A stretch of DNA of 24,988 nucleotides from a virus, in IMG/VR virus record IMGVR_UViG_3300025769_000783, positions 1 through 24,988 of that record. One strand, 5' to 3'. The notes beneath the pieces are model-generated. The model saw only the letters and a program-made list of their open reading frames with translations, was not told where the DNA came from and ran no database searches. Position numbers and translations under genes: made by a program. Below, piece after piece: positions 1,415 through 24,799 of the stretch (within the stretch, counting starts at the first letter, position 1; each line of letters starts with the position of its first letter).

Positions 1415-1750
1415 TCAAGCGGAATTACGAGAACATTTACAAAAAGTCCAATATCCCCGAAAAAAGCCCTCCGCCCTTCGTTTATAGATCTCCTCGCCGC
1501 AGGCAGTGCATTCGCATGTAAGTGGCGAAAACCTCCCATGATAGGTCGTTTTCCTCACTACCCTGCCATCATAGGCTTTCCTGATCCGCTCATCGACCTC
1601 CTCTAGGCTGACCTTCGGCTTGCCCGATTTGCTTTGGCGTGGAGGTGGTGGTGGGGCGTCATCAGGCACAAACTTGCCCAACAATCTCTCCAAATCGTGA
1701 TCCGAGTACCCATCAGGGTCGTGTTTTTGGTCGAAATCAAACCCAAACAT
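1415..1750 (-). CDS. Pro-rich/Cys-rich small protein, putative zinc-binding
   Basis: An upstream TTG at 1760-1762 is in frame, but ATG at 1748-1750 has GGAG placed 6 bases before it, so it is preferred (111 residues). The N-terminal third is acidic, followed by a run of five prolines and a basic linker. The C-terminal part has CECTACGEEI and then FCKC, a four-to-five Cys arrangement typical of a small zinc knuckle. It is the first gene downstream (leftward) of the duplicated hairpin element at 1858-1928. Function unknown. Confidence 0.6.
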   Translation of the reverse strand: MFGFDFDQKHDPDGYSDHDLERLLGKFVPDDAPPPPPRQSKSGKPKVSLEEVDERIRKAYDGRVVRKTTYHGRFSPLTCECTACGEEIYKRRAEGFFRGYWTFCKCSRNSA

Positions 1751-1756
1751 AGCATT

Positions 1757-1857
1757 CTCCAAAAAAAGTTTTTACCGTGTTTTACGGTGTAAAAGTGTAA
1801 CTTACCCCCCACGAGGGGGGCAAAATCAAAAATCCTTCTTGACTTTCTACTTCTTAT
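1757..1857 (-). promoter_or_regulatory. Leader part of duplicated element, copy A
   Basis: Read on the minus strand, this lies between the 71-base hairpin and the gene starting at 1750. It holds, in order, a box AAGAAGGATTTTT placed 17 bases after the hairpin, a G/C hairpin (six C, loop, six G at 1805-1820), a small inverted repeat ACCGT/ACGGT (1774-1788), and an A-tract/T-tract joint (AAAAAC then seven T) ending at the GGAG ribosome site. The first box and the A/T joint recur in copy B at 22482-22568. No -10/-35 promoter is convincing here. Confidence 0.55.
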
Positions 1858-1928
1858 AGGTTAAACTCTCGCGTTCCGCTAACGAGTTCACCGAGTTTAG
1901 CGGTGACTCAGCGAACAGAGTTTAACCT
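1858..1928 (-). repeat. 71-base bulged hairpin, copy A
   Basis: The outer arms AGGTTAAACTCT and AGAGTTTAACCT are a perfect 12-base inverted repeat. Inside them GTTCGCT pairs with GTTAGCGGAAC, with bulges on one strand only. The apex GAGTCACCG pairs with CGGTGAACTC around a CTAAACT loop (minus-strand reading). Copy B at 22411-22481 has the same length and the same stem order. The hairpin starts 18 bases after the stop of the primase-helicase gene. A T-run does not follow directly, so a simple intrinsic terminator is unlikely. Confidence 0.75.
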
Positions 1929-1946
1929 GATAAGAGAAGGTCAGAG

Positions 1947-3983
1947 CTACTGTGCTGGCTCTTCTGGTTTCGGACAACCATCAAAGATCCACTGGTCAAG
2001 ATTCTCTTTCCAGTCATCTGTGAACTTGTATTTGCCGTAGAACGGCTTGCCGCAGATCCCGACCTGTGCAGCCATTGACAGATACTTCCCAATAGTCTTG
2101 TCTGTGGAGTCGCCGCCAAAGACCTCCTCTCGCTGTTCCTTATGGTACACGAGGCTCAGCCCATTCTTCTCGCGTTCTTCTAACCACGGTCGCAGCAGTT
2201 TGAAGTAGTGCATTCGACGCTCTTCTGCGTTGTCCTTTCGCTCTTTGCAATTCTCCGAAAAGCTGCCAGTTTTCTGGCTCCTCTGCGGCGGTATGTCGGA
2301 CTTGAACCACTTGCCATCCTGAAGGTAGGCTGAGAACGGCTCTGGGGACTTGGACGACCGTGTTACAGCCTCAACGCATACCAGTGGTTTTATCTCATGT
2401 GGCACTAGGACAAGTTGAGAATCAGCCGCCCTACTAATACTCCCAGCCCCAGAACCGATGTCGGTCACCGATTTCTCAGACTGACTCCCCTTGGATGCGT
2501 GATGCACAACAATGATCGACACATCATACACCCGACCGATGCGGTCCAGTGCATTATACAGGAGTGTCATCTGGGCATTGTCGTTCTCGCTGGTTCCCTC
2601 TGGTAGGAACCGATAGAGGGCATCGAGGACGATCACATCGTACTGACTGGCGTTGACCTCCTCTAGCATCGCCTCTAAGCCCTTTATATCGAGCCCTGAG
2701 CCACGCAGGGCGGATACCCTGAGTGACTTGCCGGCTTTGACTCCGAGTGCGTCCTCGACCGTCTTGAGCCGCCATGCGAGTTCGTTCTTGTGGAGTTCAT
2801 TGTCCACGATGAGGCAGTTCAGGTTATTCGGGCTCGTCCACCCAAGGAAATCGCCACCATTCGCTAGGGTGATTGCCAGATTGTAGACGAACCAGCTTTT
2901 ACCCGTCTTTGGGGATGCGACGATGTTCAATGTCTCGCCTTGCCGCAGAAGTCCCTCGATTACATAGGGTCGGCGTTCTGGGCATTCACTGGAAAGCTCG
3001 TCGATCGTCAACTGAGGGTAGGACTGGCTGATATCAGCACCGGAGGTCGCAGTTCCGAGAGCGAACTCGATTTCAGGCAGGTCGGTCGTCCAGCTATCGT
3101 CCCCGAAACCGCATTGGCGAAGCAGTGCTGGTAGATCTTCCCTCTTGTGACCCTCAAGCAGGCGAAACGCCTCCGATAGGGTGATCGACTCGGCTGGGAG
3201 GATGCCATCGGAGGTCGAAAAGTTCTTGAGCAGCAGGTTGCCACCCTTCGAGATTGACCGACCGAGGGTGCCCGAAATTGCGTGCGATGAGGTCCGTTTG
3301 CCAGGGCGGACAAACTCATACGATCCGTCCCCCTTCACGATCACTCGATAGCCCTTCTGTTCTAGGGCAATCTTGACGTACTGGACAGCCTCCGCAGACT
3401 TATTGAAGTCATCCAAGGGCGAACAGCCATGATTCCTCACAGTGGGCTCGATGGGCGGCTCAGGAGCCTTGGGGGCAAGCAGGTGAGCAATCTTCGGGAG
3501 CGGTGCCTCATTGACAGGCACATCCTCCGCAGAAGTCTCGATTGCATATTCCCCGCCATTGACGTGAGTCGAACCGGGTCCGATGACCTGACAACCGGCT
3601 GAGAGGAAATCAAGACCCTGATATTCCTGAACAGACTTCGGCAACTTGAGGTCCGATGCTTTCGAGAAATACAGGTGGCGACCACCAGACGGCGACTCCA
3701 CCACAAATGCAGCAACATCGAGCAGGTCGGTGCCACAGTCCTTGGACAGTCGCTCAAGTGCCTCATAGCCATTCTTAGCCGGATCATGGACATCCACGTC
3801 GATGACCAGCGTATCAGCATCAAGGACAATGCCGTACTTATCGTCATTTGGACCAAACTCGATGTCAGATGCACGCACCTGAGTCTCTGTCCACTTGGGG
3901 GTTGTCGGTCCCTTGCGACCGGCTTGGATGGGCACAACTCGTGGGTTCCATTCCTTGATCATTTCTGGGATTTGCACTGCCAT
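1947..3983 (-). CDS. Primase-helicase: Prim-Pol domain fused to RepA-like ATPase
   Basis: 678 residues. The N-terminal part (about 15-170) matches bifunctional primase/polymerase proteins: acidic metal-binding motif VIDVDVHD (60-67), SPSGGRHLYF (98-106), and GPGSTHVNGGEY (135-146). The C-terminal part (about 335-540) is an AAA_25/RepA-like hexameric ATPase with Walker A ASPKTGKSW (356-364), Walker B DVIVLDAL (449-456), and the IIVVHHASKG strand (490-499). The C-terminus looks like a winged-helix-like tail. The expected role is primer synthesis plus fork unwinding for phage DNA replication. The start has an ideal AAGGAG site and lies about 30 bases from the divergently read terminase gene. Catalytic residues appear intact. 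Confidence 0.88.
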   Translation of the reverse strand: MAVQIPEMIKEWNPRVVPIQAGRKGPTTPKWTETQVRASDIEFGPNDDKYGIVLDADTLVIDVDVHDPAKNGYEALERLSKDCGTDLLDVAAFVVESPSGGRHLYFSKASDLKLPKSVQEYQGLDFLSAGCQVIGPGSTHVNGGEYAIETSAEDVPVNEAPLPKIAHLLAPKAPEPPIEPTVRNHGCSPLDDFNKSAEAVQYVKIALEQKGYRVIVKGDGSYEFVRPGKRTSSHAISGTLGRSISKGGNLLLKNFSTSDGILPAESITLSEAFRLLEGHKREDLPALLRQCGFGDDSWTTDLPEIEFALGTATSGADISQSYPQLTIDELSSECPERRPYVIEGLLRQGETLNIVASPKTGKSWFVYNLAITLANGGDFLGWTSPNNLNCLIVDNELHKNELAWRLKTVEDALGVKAGKSLRVSALRGSGLDIKGLEAMLEEVNASQYDVIVLDALYRFLPEGTSENDNAQMTLLYNALDRIGRVYDVSIIVVHHASKGSQSEKSVTDIGSGAGSISRAADSQLVLVPHEIKPLVCVEAVTRSSKSPEPFSAYLQDGKWFKSDIPPQRSQKTGSFSENCKERKDNAEERRMHYFKLLRPWLEEREKNGLSLVYHKEQREEVFGGDSTDKTIGKYLSMAAQVGICGKPFYGKYKFTDDWKENLDQWIFDGCPKPEEPAQ

Positions 3984-4004
3984 TGGTTACTCCTTGGAAA
4001 GGCG

Positions 4005-4013
4005 TGATAAAAT
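4005..4013 (+). promoter_or_regulatory. Extended -10 promoter for the packaging operon
   Basis: TGATAAAAT fits an extended -10 (TGn plus TAAAAT) in the short divergent gap between primase and terminase. A start about 7 bases downstream would fall at 4020-4021, that is on the ATG at 4021, implying a leaderless or near-leaderless message. It contains a GCGTGATA core shared with three other regulatory gaps. No clear -35 box is seen, as often with extended -10 promoters. Confidence 0.45.
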
Positions 4014-4020
4014 GTGTTGC

Positions 4021-4506
4021 ATGGTAAGAGGACCAAAACCACGAGCGATCGAAGTTCAAGAATCATCAGGTTCATTCAAGCACGATCCGCAGAGACGCCC
4101 AACTAACATTATAAAAGCGGACTCTCGGCTTCCTGAACCACCTGATTTGATCAAGAACGACAAAACTGCACTCGCCGTTTGGCGTGATACTGTGGATATC
4201 TTAGCGTCTAGTAATATATTAAGCAAGACGGATACGGCACTTTTAACACAATATGTTGTAACTTATTCTGCGTGGACCAAATGTGCTGAACATATCATGA
4301 AGCACGGTCATGAGGATGAGAACGGAAAGACGAGCCCTCAATCGGTTGCTTTCTTCAAGTTGTCATCCGAGCATCAGAAGCTAATCGCAGAACTTGGATT
4401 GTCGCCGTCCAGTCGAGCCAGACTGTCAGTTGCGACAAGTGATCCGACAGATGCCAAGGCAAACAGCGACCTCCGCAACTTCTTAAAGGCTGCGAAGGGT
4501 GAGTAA
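4021..4506 (+). CDS. terS: Terminase small subunit, P27 family
   Basis: 161 residues beginning MVRGPKPRA, the typical RGPKP opening of P27/Terminase_4 small terminases. Further family features follow: SGSFKHDPQRRP, PEPPDLI, a Trp-containing helix (AVWRDTVDIL), LSKTDTALLTQYVVTYSAW, and a C-terminal ELGLSPSSRARL. It recognises the packaging site and feeds DNA to the large subunit. An in-frame ATG at 4012 would add MCC and has a weak GGAAAGG upstream. The family start pattern favours 4021, which would then be nearly leaderless from the promoter at 4005-4013. Its stop overlaps the next start (TAATG). Confidence 0.88.
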   Translation: MVRGPKPRAIEVQESSGSFKHDPQRRPTNIIKADSRLPEPPDLIKNDKTALAVWRDTVDILASSNILSKTDTALLTQYVVTYSAWTKCAEHIMKHGHEDENGKTSPQSVAFFKLSSEHQKLIAELGLSPSSRARLSVATSDPTDAKANSDLRNFLKAAKGE

Positions 4507-6197
4507 TGAACTTCTTTCCCTATGTCGATCGCGTCATCAATGATGACGTTGTTTGTGGCAAGTGGATCAAGCTCGTCGTCGAACGGCACGTCAACGATCT
4601 CAGCCGAGTCGATGACGACGACTTTCCGTACTACTTCGACGAAGATAAAGCTCAGTTTGCACTCGACTTCTTTCCTCAGATTCTGAAGCACTCGATCGGT
4701 GCCCATGCAGGTCAACCATTCTATCTGGAGGATTGGCAGCAGTTCTTCGTAGGCTCACTCTTCGGGTGGCAACACAAAGAGGAAGGCAGGGGGCGAAGGT
4801 TCCGGCAGGCGTTCTTGACACTTGGGCGTAAGAACGGAAAGAGCACCCTAGCGGCTGGGATTGCACTTATGTTTGCTGCAATCGACATGAACCCAGTCAC
4901 TAACGATGTTGAGCAACGTGCCCAAGTCATCCTCGCCGCAACCAAGCGTGAACAGGCAGAGAAGGTTATCTTTGCCGAGTGCCTGCGTATGCGTCATCAA
5001 GCTCCTGCTCTCCGAGCCGAGTCTGTTGTTGCAAACAAGGTGATCACGTTCAACCACAATGGCGGTAACATTCAGGCTGTCGGTTCTGACCGACCATACG
5101 ATGGGCTGAACCCTGTTCTGGTCTCCCTCGATGAGACCCATGCGTTTGGAAACCCGCATCGCAAGTTCTTCTCGACGATGGTCACTGGTTCTGGGTCTCG
5201 GGTTCAGCCATTGCTGTTGACCACCACTACAGCCGGTGACGATCAATCGCACATCTGGATCGAGCAGATCAACTTCTGCAAGCAGGTGCTCGGCGGGACC
5301 GTTGTGGAGGACTCGATCCTCCCGATCATCTATGAAATCGACGAGGAGGATGACCCGCTCGATGAGGGATGCTGGCACAAGGCAAACCCCAACCTTGGCG
5401 TATCAATCTCCTATGACTTCCTCCGAGCCCAGTCGAAGCCATGCCGATCGTCAGTTACGGCACTCAACCGATTCAAGCGATATCACGCCAACACTCTGGT
5501 CTCGTCCACAGAGCGAATCTTTAGCCTAGAGGACTTCGATAAGTGCAGGGGCTCGCTATCCGATTGGAGGCGTGATGCTGACGCATGTGCGGCTGGGATT
5601 GACTTAGGTGGGCGAGATGACCTTGCAGCATTTGCATTGGTCGCGAGGTTCCCCACGGGCGACTACCATGCGGACGATAGCCCGATCTACAGGTACGAGG
5701 GCAGAGTCTGGGCGTACATATCGAGGACTACCCATAGGGATCTAACGGAACTTCCGTTTGCCCAGTGGATTGCTGACGGCTTGATCAAGGTCACGGACAC
5801 ACCAATTGCTGACCTCCAAGCCGACTTCATAAACGAATACTGGGACAACTACTGCTTCGACGCTGCCATTGACCCCTATCAGGCACAGCAGTTCGGGGAG
5901 CAGGTTTCATCCCAAGGTGTGGTCATCGCAACGATGGCACAAACTCAGGCACATTTCAACGAACCTATCGCTGACTTTCGGCAAGCCTGTGCAGATGGGA
6001 GATTCCGCCACGATGGAAACCCATTGCTGCGTTGGTGTTTGTCGAATGCCGTTGCAGTGAAGGACAGACAAGATCGTTGGATGTTGGCAAAGGCTGCGAG
6101 CAGTCAGAAGATAGATCCCTTAGTCGCATTGCTCATGGCGTATCGTCGCTGCATGGCAGCACCTACGCGAGGTGATGGCGATGTTTTTATCACATAG
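4506..6197 (+). CDS. terL: Terminase large subunit, HK97-like (Terminase_1)
   Basis: 563 residues. The ATPase half has Walker A LGRKNGKST (106-114) and Walker B VLVSLDETH (204-212), with a coupling motif near LLTTTTAG (237-244). The nuclease half begins near residue 362 with GIDLGGRDDLAAF (metal-binding Asp366 and Asp371/372) and has a second acidic patch in AAIDPYQAQQF. The protein powers DNA packaging and cuts the concatemer. AAGGGTGAG precedes the ATG, which overlaps the stop of terS by one base. Length and motif order are normal for the family. Confidence 0.93.
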   Translation: MNFFPYVDRVINDDVVCGKWIKLVVERHVNDLSRVDDDDFPYYFDEDKAQFALDFFPQILKHSIGAHAGQPFYLEDWQQFFVGSLFGWQHKEEGRGRRFRQAFLTLGRKNGKSTLAAGIALMFAAIDMNPVTNDVEQRAQVILAATKREQAEKVIFAECLRMRHQAPALRAESVVANKVITFNHNGGNIQAVGSDRPYDGLNPVLVSLDETHAFGNPHRKFFSTMVTGSGSRVQPLLLTTTTAGDDQSHIWIEQINFCKQVLGGTVVEDSILPIIYEIDEEDDPLDEGCWHKANPNLGVSISYDFLRAQSKPCRSSVTALNRFKRYHANTLVSSTERIFSLEDFDKCRGSLSDWRRDADACAAGIDLGGRDDLAAFALVARFPTGDYHADDSPIYRYEGRVWAYISRTTHRDLTELPFAQWIADGLIKVTDTPIADLQADFINEYWDNYCFDAAIDPYQAQQFGEQVSSQGVVIATMAQTQAHFNEPIADFRQACADGRFRHDGNPLLRWCLSNAVAVKDRQDRWMLAKAASSQKIDPLVALLMAYRRCMAAPTRGDGDVFIT

Positions 6198-8184: not shown

Positions 8185-9468
8185 ATGGAGAAACCAAAAC
8201 CCATGAAGCGTATCAATGAACTAAAGGCTCGAATGGACGAAATTCTCGATATCTTCGAGGAAGTCAAGATCGAAGCCGAGGGCAGCGACCTGACCGAAGA
8301 GCGTCAGGAATTTGTCGCAGCACTGACCACTGAGTTCGACGAGGCACAAGCCGAAGTCGCCAAATTTGAGAAGCAGCAAGCAGAGATTGAGGCTCGCCTC
8401 GATATCCGCCGAGCTAGCGAAGAAATTTCAGAACCTCCACAAATCGCAGAACCCGTCCAAGAGGAAGTCAAGAACGTGATCCCCGCAGTCGCCAAAACCC
8501 AGAAGAGCAAGTTCTTCGCGTCGAACGAAGATGCTTACACCGCAGGCATGTTCCTGAACTCCCTGAGCGGCAACCGCCGAGCCAACGAGTTCTTGGCAGC
8601 ACAGTCGATCGGCACTGACGCTGACGGTGGATACCTTGTTCCAACCCCATTGGCTAACACGCTGATCAACTTGCTGGAAGAGTACGGTGTTGCTCGCCAA
8701 GTCTGTAAGCGGATCGTCATGTCGGCTGAGACTTGGAGCGTACCAAAGCTGACCGAGCACGCAACGGTCTACTACCCAGCCGAAGCTGCCTCTATCACCG
8801 AGAGCGATTTGGCATTCAGCCAGATCACCTTGACGGCGAAGAAAGTTGCAGCGTTGGTCAAGATGAGCACCGAAGTTCAAGAAGATTCGGTTATCTCTCT
8901 GGTCGATACCGTTGTGCAGTCGATTGCCTACTCATTGGCGATTGCCGAGGACAACAACTTGTTCAACGGCGTTGCTTCGGCTATTAACGCCAACGGCATC
9001 AACGATGACACCAACGTGGCTGACACTAACGTAGCAAGCGTTGCTGCCTTGGCGTTGTCTGACTTCACCGACTGTGTTGCTGCTATCGGCAACCCAATCA
9101 TCGGTGCTCGCAACGAGTGGTACATCAATGCAAGCCTGTTCCACGGTCCAGTTCGCGAACTGTTGAACGCAGCTGGTGGTAACACTCTGGCTGACCTCGA
9201 AGGTGGTCAAAGCCCACGACTGCTGGGATACCCAGTGAACTTCGTGAGCGTCCTCCCGGGTGCATCGGCATCGACCGCAGGCGACTTGCTTGCAGTGTTC
9301 GGTGACATGAGCCTCGGATGCTACTTTGGTGATCGCCGCCAACCATCGTTCAAGGTTCTGAACGAGTTGTTCGCTGTGAACGATCAAGTTGGCGTTGTCG
9401 CTACCGAGCGTATCGACATCCAAGTTGCCAACCCAGAAGTACTTGGCAAGATCACCATCACTGGCTAA
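8185..9468 (+). CDS. Major capsid protein, HK97 fold
   Basis: 427 residues. Residues 1 to about 105 are a charged, heptad-like delta domain (KRINELKARMDEILDIFEEV and similar) acting as internal scaffold. The mature part follows, with SIGTDADGGYLVPTPLANTL (141-160), the classic HK97 capsid entry motif, and a C-terminal domain with a GGQSPRLLGYPV loop and a DRRQPSFKVL strand. The expected protease cut is near 105-112. Start options are ATG 8185 (AAGGG upstream) or ATG 8203 (GGAG upstream but about 12 bases away). Both keep the delta domain. It assembles the head shell and has its own putative promoter. Confidence 0.94.
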   Translation: MEKPKPMKRINELKARMDEILDIFEEVKIEAEGSDLTEERQEFVAALTTEFDEAQAEVAKFEKQQAEIEARLDIRRASEEISEPPQIAEPVQEEVKNVIPAVAKTQKSKFFASNEDAYTAGMFLNSLSGNRRANEFLAAQSIGTDADGGYLVPTPLANTLINLLEEYGVARQVCKRIVMSAETWSVPKLTEHATVYYPAEAASITESDLAFSQITLTAKKVAALVKMSTEVQEDSVISLVDTVVQSIAYSLAIAEDNNLFNGVASAINANGINDDTNVADTNVASVAALALSDFTDCVAAIGNPIIGARNEWYINASLFHGPVRELLNAAGGNTLADLEGGQSPRLLGYPVNFVSVLPGASASTAGDLLAVFGDMSLGCYFGDRRQPSFKVLNELFAVNDQVGVVATERIDIQVANPEVLGKITITG

Positions 9469-20129: not shown

Positions 20130-20500
20130 TCTGCACCGAATGCCAACGAAACGTCATAGGCAGCGAGAAATGCCCCCTGTGCAACGCAGAGACAAAGGCG
20201 GCTGTTGTGTCGAGAGAAACTCAGGCAACACGCAGAGGTCGCCCTGGGACCGCTCTCGCTAGGTTAATCCCAGCATGGGCAAAGGCTAACAAGGGCAAGT
20301 GTTCCTGCAAGGACTATCAGGCGAAGATGGACCGTTGGGGAACCGATGGGTGCAGGCAGCACTATGATGAGATTGTTAGCCACCTGATGAAACAAGAAAC
20401 CCATCTGATATCTCCGCTAAGAAAGATACCAGACAGGTTCAAGTTAATGCTCGCCAAAGGTCTCGTGACTTGGGCGATCAACAAATCAGTTGAGGATTGA
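20126..20500 (+). CDS. Small zinc-ribbon protein with C-terminal Cys motif
   Basis: 124 residues, start inside the previous stop (ATGA). Cys3, Cys6, Cys16 and Cys19 form a CxxC...CxxC zinc ribbon. A basic linker with RRGRPG follows. A second motif KGKCSCKDYQAKMDRWGTDG continues with CRQH (Cys59, Cys61, Cys76). I have seen this second pattern as a stand-alone Cys motif in uncharacterised proteins of phage and planctomycete type, but cannot name it. The 3' end overlaps by 15 bases the convergent gene on the other strand. It is the last gene of the late operon. Confidence 0.6.
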   Translation: MICTECQRNVIGSEKCPLCNAETKAAVVSRETQATRRGRPGTALARLIPAWAKANKGKCSCKDYQAKMDRWGTDGCRQHYDEIVSHLMKQETHLISPLRKIPDRFKLMLAKGLVTWAINKSVED

Positions 20501-21001
20501 AATCGGGATGATCTGCTGGAAGTCCTCAACGCACAGGAACGACAATTCGCAGCCTAGATACTGGAGTTCGTCGTTCGCATCATCCCAGCCGCTATTGTCG
20601 GCAAACAGGGAGTACAGGTGAGAAAGGTTGTGGGAGGTCACGAGTTCGCATACGACCGATCGAACGATCATCGCTGCGGCTTCCTCCCAGTCCTCACCGA
20701 CCCGATCCCTGCATAAGATCGGATCAATGACCTTGATCCTACAGGTTGCGTTTACCGCTACGGGAGAGTCATCGGCAGTTGTCATCCGTTGGAGACCGCA
20801 GTCGATGGGCACTTCGCACCTCGGGAAATATTGCACTGGAGTGAGAGCAGGGCAGTGCAGTACAGGGAGACCCGAGGTGCGAGGTCCGGTAATCATCGAA
20901 TCCACCACCAGAAACTCATTCGACTGAGGTCTGCGAGCGAGGCGGGGAAACAAGTCGAGGAGCGGTTCTAGGAAACTCCCCACGAGGTCAAATAGGCTCA
21001 T
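20486..21001 (-). CDS. SPFH/band-7-like domain protein (tentative)
   Basis: 171 residues. The centre (about 68-130) reads GLQRMTTADDSPVAVNATCRIKVIDPI, then EAAAMIVRSVVCELVTSHNLSHL. This resembles the SPFH/prohibitin pattern (T.DG..V.V.....+.V.DP, then helices ending in a short ...L..L). An N-terminal amphipathic or hydrophobic stretch (MSLFDLVGSFLEPLLDLFPRL) could lie on the membrane. Such domains form membrane-associated scaffolds; what a phage uses one for is not known. The start overlaps the upstream gene (ATGA). The call is based on pattern only. Confidence 0.45.
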   Translation of the reverse strand: MSLFDLVGSFLEPLLDLFPRLARRPQSNEFLVVDSMITGPRTSGLPVLHCPALTPVQYFPRCEVPIDCGLQRMTTADDSPVAVNATCRIKVIDPILCRDRVGEDWEEAAAMIVRSVVCELVTSHNLSHLYSLFADNSGWDDANDELQYLGCELSFLCVEDFQQIIPISILN

Positions 21002-21273: not shown

Positions 21274-21938
21274 AGAAGCATTGGCTCAAAGATTGGGGTT
21301 GTGCCGTCGATCACGATTCCACACCCGATGATCGGCTTTCGTGAATACTTGATTCCATAATCTTGCTGGTGGTGCTTCCAATCAGCCCCCGACCCAACCT
21401 GCATCCCGAATACACGATGATTTCTGTTGGCAACAAACTCTATCCCAGCCTTCGAGTGGTGATGACCTTGTACAACGCTCTGAAACTCGTCCTTGGCGTT
21501 CAGGGCGGCGGAGGAGCGACCTCGATCGCCATGCTGATAGATCACGCCGTCGATCTCTAACTGGGCATAGCGGGCGTGTACGGTCCATGTATCTGGCAAG
21601 CCAAAGATGCTACCAAAGTCCTTCATCATCTCCTCTGGGATTCCGACCTCGTTCGCCCAGCGATATGGCAGGACATCGTGGTTCCCGATCATGAGGTCTA
21701 CGGCTGGGAAGTAGTGAGTCAGGATTTCGACCTGCTCCATTGCCTGCTCGAACTCTCTGATTGGGTCTTTTTGCTTTGGCTTTTTCAGGTGGAAAGAGAG
21801 GGCACAGTTGTCCACGAGATCACCAATATGGACGACTCGATCACAGTCCCATGACTCATAGCAGTCCCACAAAAAGTCTGGATACTCAGCCAACATGCAT
21901 GGGGCGTGCGTATCCCCGATCACTAGTACTCTGGACAT
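21270..21938 (-). CDS. Calcineurin-like metallophosphoesterase
   Basis: 222 residues with all expected metal-binding motifs in order: GDTHAP (Asp9, His11), GDLVDN (39-44), GNHD (85-88), YQHGD (His136), and GHHHS (158-162). It is a compact phosphoesterase that hydrolyses phosphodiesters or phosphomonoesters. The substrate in phages of this kind is not established. It is preceded by GGAGAGAG, overlaps the resolvase stop (TAATG), and lies in the leftward early-type operon with a resolvase and an SPFH-like protein. Confidence 0.9.
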   Translation of the reverse strand: MSRVLVIGDTHAPCMLAEYPDFLWDCYESWDCDRVVHIGDLVDNCALSFHLKKPKQKDPIREFEQAMEQVEILTHYFPAVDLMIGNHDVLPYRWANEVGIPEEMMKDFGSIFGLPDTWTVHARYAQLEIDGVIYQHGDRGRSSAALNAKDEFQSVVQGHHHSKAGIEFVANRNHRVFGMQVGSGADWKHHQQDYGIKYSRKPIIGCGIVIDGTTPIFEPMLL

Positions 21939-22381
21939 TATTCTCTCTCCATGTAAACGTCGATAGTAACGTACCCACTCTTCAACTCACTACGCTGTGA
22001 ATCGCATTGTAGCCCGTGGACGAATTTGATGTACTTCGGTGAATCATCACGAGCTACACCAGCCTCGATCAGGCTGTCCACCAATTGCTTGGCGTTGCCT
22101 CGAAGCACTGAATCAGCATCCCACAGCCGCTGTCCTTTTCCCAGCCACCTCGTGACCACAAGTCCCTGCAAGCCGTCAGGGGCACCACAGGCTAGATAGG
22201 AGTCGAGGTGAAACTCGGTCCCATTCTTCGAGATCACATAGGCGTTCGCCAAGGCGTTCACCCATGCCTTTCTCTCTTTGTGGGATGCTGACCAATGTTT
22301 CGACTGACCATTGTTGGAGTTCTTCAACTCCTTGTCCACAACTATCCTGTACTCTTTCTCAAAGCCGTGCATGACACTCAT
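21938..22381 (-). CDS. RusA-like Holliday-junction resolvase
   Basis: 147 residues. Features of the RusA family are the early NNGQSKHWSASHKERKAW region and the conserved acidic core WDADSVLRGNAKQLVDSL, then EAGVARDDSPKYI (Asp88, Asp90, Asp102, Asp112/113). The protein cuts branched DNA intermediates, which in phages helps replication and packaging. First gene of the leftward cluster, facing the 278-base regulatory gap. In-frame Met at residue 4 is an alternative start. An inverted repeat (GGAGTT/AACTCC at 22316-22331) lies inside the gene. Confidence 0.75.
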   Translation of the reverse strand: MSVMHGFEKEYRIVVDKELKNSNNGQSKHWSASHKERKAWVNALANAYVISKNGTEFHLDSYLACGAPDGLQGLVVTRWLGKGQRLWDADSVLRGNAKQLVDSLIEAGVARDDSPKYIKFVHGLQCDSQRSELKSGYVTIDVYMERE

Positions 22382-22410
22382 CTGTTCACCGCCCGTTTGT
22401 TTTGGTTGGT

Positions 22411-22481
22411 AGGTAAGCTCTCGTTTGCTGAGTTCTCGCCAGCTGCGTTGAACTCGCTAGCGATACGCAAGAGCTTAACCT
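22411..22481 (+). repeat. 71-base bulged hairpin, copy B
   Basis: The outer arms AGGTAAGCTCT and AGAGCTTAACCT pair over 11 bases with one bulge. The middle stem contains GCT/AGC and CGT/ACG pairs with bulges on the 3' side, and the apex pairs GAGTTC with GAACTC. The same length as copy A (1858-1928 minus strand) and 49 of 71 positions identical without gaps; GAACTCG(C/T)TAGCG is almost unchanged. An A-T pair of copy A is a G-C pair here, which keeps the stem. It lies about 30 bases upstream of the leftward resolvase start and upstream of the rightward promoter. Confidence 0.75.
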
Positions 22482-22568
22482 CCCAAACCGGAAAATGCAA
22501 GGAGGATTTTTTATTGCAACCCCAAATCGAGGTTTTGTGCTGAAAAACAGGGAAAAAAGTTTTTTTGG
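22482..22568 (+). promoter_or_regulatory. Leader part of duplicated element, copy B
   Basis: Starting 17 bases after the hairpin, as in copy A, there is AAGGAGGATTTTTT, a strong ribosome-site-like box with no ATG at a normal distance. It is followed by a weak hairpin (AACC/GGTT near 22518-22534) and the A/T joint AAAAAAG plus seven T (22553-22566). A 28-codon ATG frame (22495-22581) and a 9-codon TTG frame pass through it, but neither is conserved in copy A. Purpose unknown. Confidence 0.5.
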
Positions 22569-22586
22569 AATTTCACGCTAAAGCCA

Positions 22587-22614
22587 TTGCCACACATGTG
22601 GCGATCTGTATAAT
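22587..22614 (+). promoter_or_regulatory. Rightward early promoter with internal operator-like palindrome
   Basis: TTGCCA (22587-22592) and TATAAT (22609-22614) are separated by 16 bases. The spacer holds GCCACACATGTGGC (22589-22602), a 6-base inverted repeat with a 2-base centre that overlaps the -35 box, where a repressor could act. Transcription would begin near 22621 and give a leader of about 40 bases before ATG 22660. This is the best consensus promoter in the window. Confidence 0.65.
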
Positions 22615-23923: not shown

Positions 23924-24089
23924 TGACCTTCACGAGATCTACAGTGAGATGTACGAGCAGGTTGACACGCTTCAGAATAGTGTTATAGTCTGGTCTGAAA
24001 TATTCTCAAGGGGTTCTGACAACCCATTTGAATTGATCGAAGAATTGGTGGATGAAGTAAACATCTGTTTTGCAGAGGAGAGCGAATGA
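23709..24089 (+). CDS. Hypothetical helical early protein, 126 residues
   Basis: ATG 23709 is preceded by AAAGGTG. The sequence is well behaved and helical (TEFQVRELELQTILELRARC, NPSLGEVLINIAAETPKDVE, IYSEMYEQVDTLQNSVIVW) and acidic at the end (LVDEVNICFAEESE). It overlaps the previous frame by 215 bases, unusual for this genome, so the start could be wrong and the protein may be the C-terminal half of a fusion. The last 4 bases overlap the Sak4-type gene (ATGA). No family recognised. Confidence 0.6.
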   Translation: MDGRTEFQVRELELQTILELRARCVHLLERAEFQIERGNPSLGEVLINIAAETPKDVESIVTRMIRDWAKIDDLHEIYSEMYEQVDTLQNSVIVWSEIFSRGSDNPFELIEELVDEVNICFAEESE

Positions 24090-24799
24090 GTTATTTGGAT
24101 GCAGTGACGAGGGGCAGAAAGATTGTCCCTCGTCGGACACTGATCTACGGATCACATGGTGTGGGGAAAACGACTTGGGCTGCGAAGTGGGACAATCCTG
24201 TTCTGCTGCCAACCGAGGACGGCTTTCACCATATCGACGTTGCGAGCGGTCCGCTGATCAAAACATCGGCTGGGCTGAAGCAGGCAATCAAGGACGTTCG
24301 AGAGAGCGACTTTGGTACGATTATCCTCGACTCGATCGACTGGGCTGAGAAGATTTGTTCCGAGGAGCTGGACGCTTCGTCCTTCGATCAGAGTTGGGGA
24401 AAGGGTGCGGTCGAACTTGGTCATCGAATTGCGTCCATCCTTCGCGAATTGGAGTTGTGCCGAGATGCAGGCAAGCACATCGTGTTGGTTGGTCACGAGC
24501 AGATTACCAAGGTCGTCCGTCCAGACGGCAAGGAGTATGGAACGAGATCGGTCAAGCTCAGTAAGCACGCAAGCCGAGTCGTGTGCGAATGGTGCGATGA
24601 AGTGTTGTACGCTGAGTGCGATTATCTCGTGAAGTCCTCCGATGGAAAGTTCGGCGGGATTGCAGTTGACAAAGGCACTCGCAGCCTATACACTGCCAAC
24701 TCGCCGTTGCACGAGGCGAAGAATAGAATTGTTGGACTGCCCGAAAGGTTCGAGTTGTCCGATTTCGATAGTTACTTTAGTTACGTTAAGGGAGAGTAG
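24086..24799 (+). CDS. Sak4-type RecA-fold ATPase (AAA_24)
   Basis: 237 residues. Walker A GSHGVGKTT (22-30), Walker B TIILDSID (78-85), and a strand HIVLVGHEQI (131-140) with a polar end give the compact RecA-like fold of phage ATP-binding proteins such as Sak4. These act in single-strand annealing or recombination with a single-strand DNA-binding partner. The following gene is of DUF669 type, the typical neighbour. No N-terminal extension or helicase domain is present, so it is not a full RecA. Confidence 0.85.
   Translation: MSYLDAVTRGRKIVPRRTLIYGSHGVGKTTWAAKWDNPVLLPTEDGFHHIDVASGPLIKTSAGLKQAIKDVRESDFGTIILDSIDWAEKICSEELDASSFDQSWGKGAVELGHRIASILRELELCRDAGKHIVLVGHEQITKVVRPDGKEYGTRSVKLSKHASRVVCEWCDEVLYAECDYLVKSSDGKFGGIAVDKGTRSLYTANSPLHEAKNRIVGLPERFELSDFDSYFSYVKGE

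Follow-up and report, generated by a model that had tools for sequence, protein, structure and literature searches.

A bulged stem-loop conserved at two places in related viruses: a proposed pair of matching replication start sites

Results

Genes around the two sites

The DNA analysed here (the window) is a virus record of 24,988 bases, probably a genome fragment. It belongs to an HK97-type siphophage, with a terminase at 3895-6197 and a capsid protein at 8185-9468, and the phage probably infects a host among the Planctomycetes and their kin. The genomes with which the window was compared are all metagenomic contigs, mostly fragments. A primase-helicase gene lies on the minus strand at 1947..3983, and its product combines a Prim-Pol with an AAA_25 (RSF1010 RepA-like) helicase. 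The helicase part matches RSF1010 RepA in both sequence and fold (1g8y, E=4e-5; 1nlf, TM 0.72 by target length), and no SF3 helicase domain was found in this replication protein, which carries the AAA_25/RepA-like domain instead. The clade 3 primase-helicase contains the Pfam winged helix HTH_24. The window protein gave no match to a Pfam winged helix, and a C-terminal winged helix is weakly supported there by a model showing a winged-helix-like order of elements (matches weak, best PDB E=0.49).

Further along the same strand, at 1415..1750, is the gene for a small Cys-containing protein, which has DPDGY as an N-terminal motif and matched no Pfam or PHROG family. Homologues of it follow the corresponding hairpin in several related loci, and none was found in L003, L004, L008 or L009. 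At the other end of the window, a RusA-like Holliday junction resolvase is encoded on the minus strand (21938..22381), and a Sak4-like single-strand annealing protein (24086..24799, plus strand) lies in an operon that runs in the opposite direction. A strong inverted repeat, GCACCTCGGG...CCCGAGGTGC, was also seen at 20805-20895, within the minus-strand gene at 20486-21001.

Two copies of a bulged hairpin

Hairpin A (1858..1928, minus strand; outer stem AGGTTAAACTCT/AGAGTTTAACCT) is located directly 3′ of the primase-helicase gene, and hairpin B (22411..22481, plus strand) is located between the RusA-like gene, whose start is 30 nt away, and the Sak4 operon, which begins beyond it. As described in the initial annotation, both are 71 nt long, start with AGGT, end with TTAACCT and are identical at 49 of 71 positions without gaps. 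Both fold as bulged single hairpins with energies well below those of dinucleotide shuffles, either as RNA (−32.0 kcal/mol, z −5.4 for A; −30.0 kcal/mol, z −3.8 for B) or as single-stranded DNA (−20.7 kcal/mol, z −6.1 and −17.8 kcal/mol, z −4.3), and the paired change between their outer stems proved to be real. The stem of each copy reaches past the 71 nt: in A (1853..1934 with the extension) CTTAT/ATAAG closes the stem after a one-base bulge, and in B (22403..22488) the extension is GGTTGG/CCcAAACC, so that the extension sequences differ between A and B yet pair.

The likeness of the two copies is also wider than first noted, covering approximately 170 nt at 67% identity (E=6e-13) and reaching approximately 95 nt 3′ of the hairpin. 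This flank holds a conserved tail motif, AAAGTCAAG in A (1838..1846, minus strand) and AAATGCAAG in B (22493..22501, plus strand), whose core (TCAAG and GCAAG, respectively) begins 15 nt 3′ of the hairpin. It also holds an A/T-rich block, TAAAACAcGGtAAAAACTTTTTTTGGA, represented by TAAAACACGGTAAAAACTTTTTTTGGA in A (1758..1784, minus strand; common to A, B and L119) and by AAAAACAGGGAAAAAAGTTTTTTTGGA in B (22543..22569, plus strand; common to A and B). The two sites thus lie on opposite strands, one per strand, approximately 20 kb apart with structural genes between them, and both hairpins are sense to the operon that follows, an arrangement that an RNA leader would also give.

When a covariance model built from A and B was run on the window, only A and B were found. 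Neither copy matched any Rfam family above its gathering threshold. When the A/B core was scanned for as an exact pattern in viral and genome contigs, the single match was a contig identical to the window, and blastn of B against annotated phages gave no match. No clear switch in GC skew was seen at A or B, and neither is followed by a T run.

Stem-loops 3′ of primase-helicase genes in relatives

In relatives whose primases are 41-70% identical, a bulged hairpin is likewise located directly 3′ of the primase-helicase gene, and the hairpin sequences are unrelated between clades. The folding of the 3′ regions of 43 primase loci was compared with that of 182 control 3′ intergenic regions. The result showed that the primase loci are far more structured (median z −3.2 versus −1.5, p=5.6e-13, with loci that are partly non-independent and a z that corrects for GC only); stem-loops are enriched 3′ of this gene family, and the Prim-Pol/helicase gene is the commonest stem-loop neighbour. 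Some of these stem-loops may be terminators; the clade 3 hairpins end in a T run. The motif [TG]CAAG occurs 2-15 nt 3′ of 13/16 hairpins, compared with 13% of background 40-nt windows, and a GTG motif is found by the hairpin in some clades only. Many of the 43 loci are on contigs labelled Planctomycetota, Lentisphaerae, Kiritimatiellae or Candidatus Kuenenia.

Several other features were observed at such loci. In bacterial contigs, some primase-helicase genes are directly followed by very long stem-loops (L146:8887-9000, L126:11027-11150, L123:7463-7580 and L138:11273-11420), and three of these contigs (L126, L123 and L146) share the motif TAGGTACT further 3′ of the stem-loop. Iteron-like repeat units, TTGCCTGAACCTTACC, are found beside the stem-loop after a primase gene at L058:2202-2560. 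In clade 3, there may be another hairpin approximately 1.25 kb downstream of the first, in the same orientation and with 3′ sequence in common (L009:13667-13760); it is weak and was left out of the counts. Hairpin-like matches in L079, L084 and L085 were dropped, as no comparable hairpin fold was present.

The second site and within-genome matching

A 38.6-kb contig, G011, whose primase is 49% identical to that of the window, also has a copy at each of the two syntenic places, on opposite strands, at about 2.6 kb (A′) and about 22.7 kb (B′). B′ is flanked by RusA and the Sak4 operon, as B is in the window, and is 69% identical to A′. Hairpins are also present at site B in L163, L282 and L287. 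The L282 and L283 contigs were searched for a primase that would locate their A site, and none was found on those contigs; L283 has a hairpin upstream of RusA, which was excluded because the gene order there is different. In clade 3, no second copy was found upstream of RusA. Between L163 and L159 the MPE proteins are 98% identical, the adjacent RusA proteins are 63% identical and the B hairpin has diverged, marking a recombination boundary near site B. A covariance model built from relatives only, with A and B excluded, found B of the window on the expected strand (E=3.6e-6) and did not find A, and A is therefore tied to the family by its position and its likeness to B.

Local alignment showed that the two sites are strongly alike within a genome (z 23.3 for A and B of the window; z 23.7 for the two G011 copies), whereas the same site is only weakly alike between genomes (z 2.5 for A versus G011 A; z 3.3 for B versus G011 B). 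This difference implies that change at one site of a genome goes with change at the other, and it suggests that a single recogniser is common to both. The B copies of different genomes resemble each other within one clade, suggesting that the coupling is slow. Gene conversion is less likely as its cause, given that the copies are just 67-69% identical.

Covariation and the question of DNA or RNA

In the eight elements of clade 2, four pairs of one ten-pair helix show compensatory change, with seven changed cells, and none of 500 shuffles reached the observed covariation score. The outer stems of relatives also co-vary. The expectation of a conserved, covarying structure and of constraint on both copies is supported, and the compensatory pair changes in relatives show selection on a folded strand, whether this is RNA, single-stranded DNA or cruciform DNA.

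Strand-biased fold stability was considered as evidence for RNA and rejected: among 32 primase-linked hairpins the sense and antisense strands were equally stable when folded (17 of 32, p=0.70), showing no sense bias. No sigma70-like promoter was found upstream of A or B on the hairpin strand, although the promoter type of the host may differ. The best rightward promoter (TTGCCA-16-TATAAT, 22587..22614, plus strand) lies downstream of B, as the initial annotation had said, and in L287 a similar promoter (TTGACA-16-TACAAT) is likewise located downstream of the B-site hairpin. These promoter positions, the absence of a sense-strand stability bias and the position of A next to the primase-helicase gene, like that of the stem-loop of plasmid pRN1, favour DNA over RNA as the acting form.

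Discussion

A proposed pair of replication-initiation sites

Among the three options raised in the initial annotation, namely a put-like RNA, a leader regulator and a DNA element such as an origin, the best fit is the origin, given that the Prim-Pol/helicase gene has A directly on its 3′ side, the position that the experimentally required stem-loop takes in pRN1. We propose, with a probability of roughly 0.6, that replication is initiated at A and B, which would form a matched pair of stem-loop sites acting as DNA and recognised by the phage's own Prim-Pol/helicase. The Prim-Pol/RepA-like protein would recognise the folded hairpin together with the nearby 3′ motif AAA[GT][TG]CAAG, then assemble its helicase and prime at the hairpin, near that motif. 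A would be the site adjoining the gene of its recogniser, as in pRN1, and that protein would also use B, on the opposite strand and beside the resolvase and annealing genes. Points against this reading are that B is not adjacent to the primase gene, that GC skew gives no clear switch at either site, that the model from relatives missed A and that clade 3 has no second copy upstream of RusA. B could prime the other strand, as ssiA and ssiB do in RSF1010. Alternatively, it could be a second origin or a fork-stalling site when replication switches to concatemers, a role like that put forward for SPP1. That the Prim-Pol/helicase recognises the sites, that they act as origins and that A and B divide the work between them are inferences.

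A more specific version is put forward tentatively, at somewhat less than even odds: a two-site stem-loop replication system of tailed phages, in which matching hairpins on opposite strands, about half a genome apart, co-evolve with one fused Prim-Pol/RepA-type protein, and in which each site starts one strand, or one starts replication and the other stalls it for the concatemer switch.

Alternative explanations

A and B may instead be cis-acting RNAs, put-like antiterminators or leaders, that head two early operons and act on their transcription or translation. Phage HK022 provides the precedent, since its putL and putR are antiterminator RNAs that act on host RNA polymerase and, like A and B, are two related structured elements of approximately 70 nt, one per early operon (PMC9378689). 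The orientation of the hairpins agrees with such a role, G-U pairs preserve the helix on the hairpin strand at a few positions, and a gene in L282 begins shortly 3′ of the hairpin. However, each put element has two stem-loops and is transcribed from an upstream promoter, whereas A and B are single bulged stem-loops, and in the window and L287 the good promoter lies downstream of the B-site hairpin. No Rfam family matched, and sense and antisense folds were equally stable. The sequence is matched within genomes rather than conserved between them, which would be surprising if an RNA bound host polymerase with no help from a phage factor. Thus, the parallel with put is not supported, and an RNA role in general appears unlikely. 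The matching within genomes calls for no more than some shared trans-acting factor. A and B may instead be binding sites, rather than priming sites, for another phage protein that couples the early operons or recombination; candidates are a repressor, RusA if it acts on a cruciform extruded from the DNA, and the small Cys-containing protein. RusA-like and Sak4-like genes flank B, and the small-protein homologue follows A in several clades. On the other hand, RusA is far from A, no homologue of the small protein was found in clade 3, where the hairpin is kept, and the commonest neighbour of the stem-loops is the Prim-Pol/helicase gene, making this explanation distinctly unlikely.

An ordinary role at the ends of early transcripts, with the hairpins serving as transcription terminators or RNA processing sites, is very improbable. 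A does follow a gene end and the clade 3 hairpins have their T run, but A and B have none, B stands between genes that diverge and so call for no terminator, and the likeness of A and B spans the loops and 95 nt of flank, which is unexpected for terminators or RNase III sites. Least credible of all is a recombination substrate, a folded attC-like or inversion site, kept by gene conversion. The copies are inverted, and bulged folded sites resemble attC in outline. Nevertheless, no integrase or invertase was found among the proteins scanned near the sites, no attC boxes were seen when sought by eye, and the identity of the copies is low for homologous conversion.

Relation to known systems

Start-site choice by phages with Prim-Pol replication proteins is little known, and the stem-loop model for it is based on the genetics of pRN1 and a single example from a phage. 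The hairpins described here form a natural series linked to one enzyme family, many of them in Planctomycetes and their kin, and their matched pairs are directly testable. Whether a primase of the archaeo-eukaryotic type reads DNA shape, sequence or both could be tested by swapping hairpins and proteins across clades. Stem-loop origins 3′ of Prim-Pol-helicase genes are already known in outline; a literature search at the level of titles and abstracts, a thin test, found no matched stem-loop pair at two conserved sites.

In the Sulfolobus plasmid pRN1, replication depends in cis on a stem-loop 3′ of orf904, an element conserved in structure but not in sequence; a similar stem-loop lies 3′ of the replication gene of phage BIP-1/BPP-1 (PMC4234260). 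In the phages studied here, as in these systems, an AEP Prim-Pol-helicase gene is directly followed by a stem-loop of approximately 55-120 nt, which is conserved in structure and flanking motifs and not in sequence. The phages studied here differ in having a RepA-like (AAA_25) helicase in place of SF3 and a second matched copy approximately 20 kb away on the opposite strand.

The ssiA and ssiB sites of RSF1010 are single-strand initiation sites used with the RepB′ primase and the RepA helicase (PMC4434180). They resemble A and B in combining a hairpin with a short 3′ motif, in lying one per strand, and in occurring alongside an AEP primase and a RepA helicase. However, they are 40-nt sites within one plasmid origin that also has iterons and RepC, whereas A and B are approximately 20 kb apart; the motif is GTG there and [TG]CAAG here, and the phage primase-helicase is one fused polypeptide.

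In the Bacillus phage SPP1, with oriL and oriR, a second origin has been proposed to take part in the concatemer switch (PMC6316719). The arrangement proposed for A and B parallels that of SPP1, in which two origins, organised alike and separated by kilobases, are bound by a single initiator, and one of them is tied to the initiator gene; resolvase and annealing genes take part in the concatemer switch of SPP1. Its sites, in contrast, consist of direct repeats and an AT-rich element with no stem-loop, and its initiator is gp38, working with a DnaB-type helicase and host DnaG.
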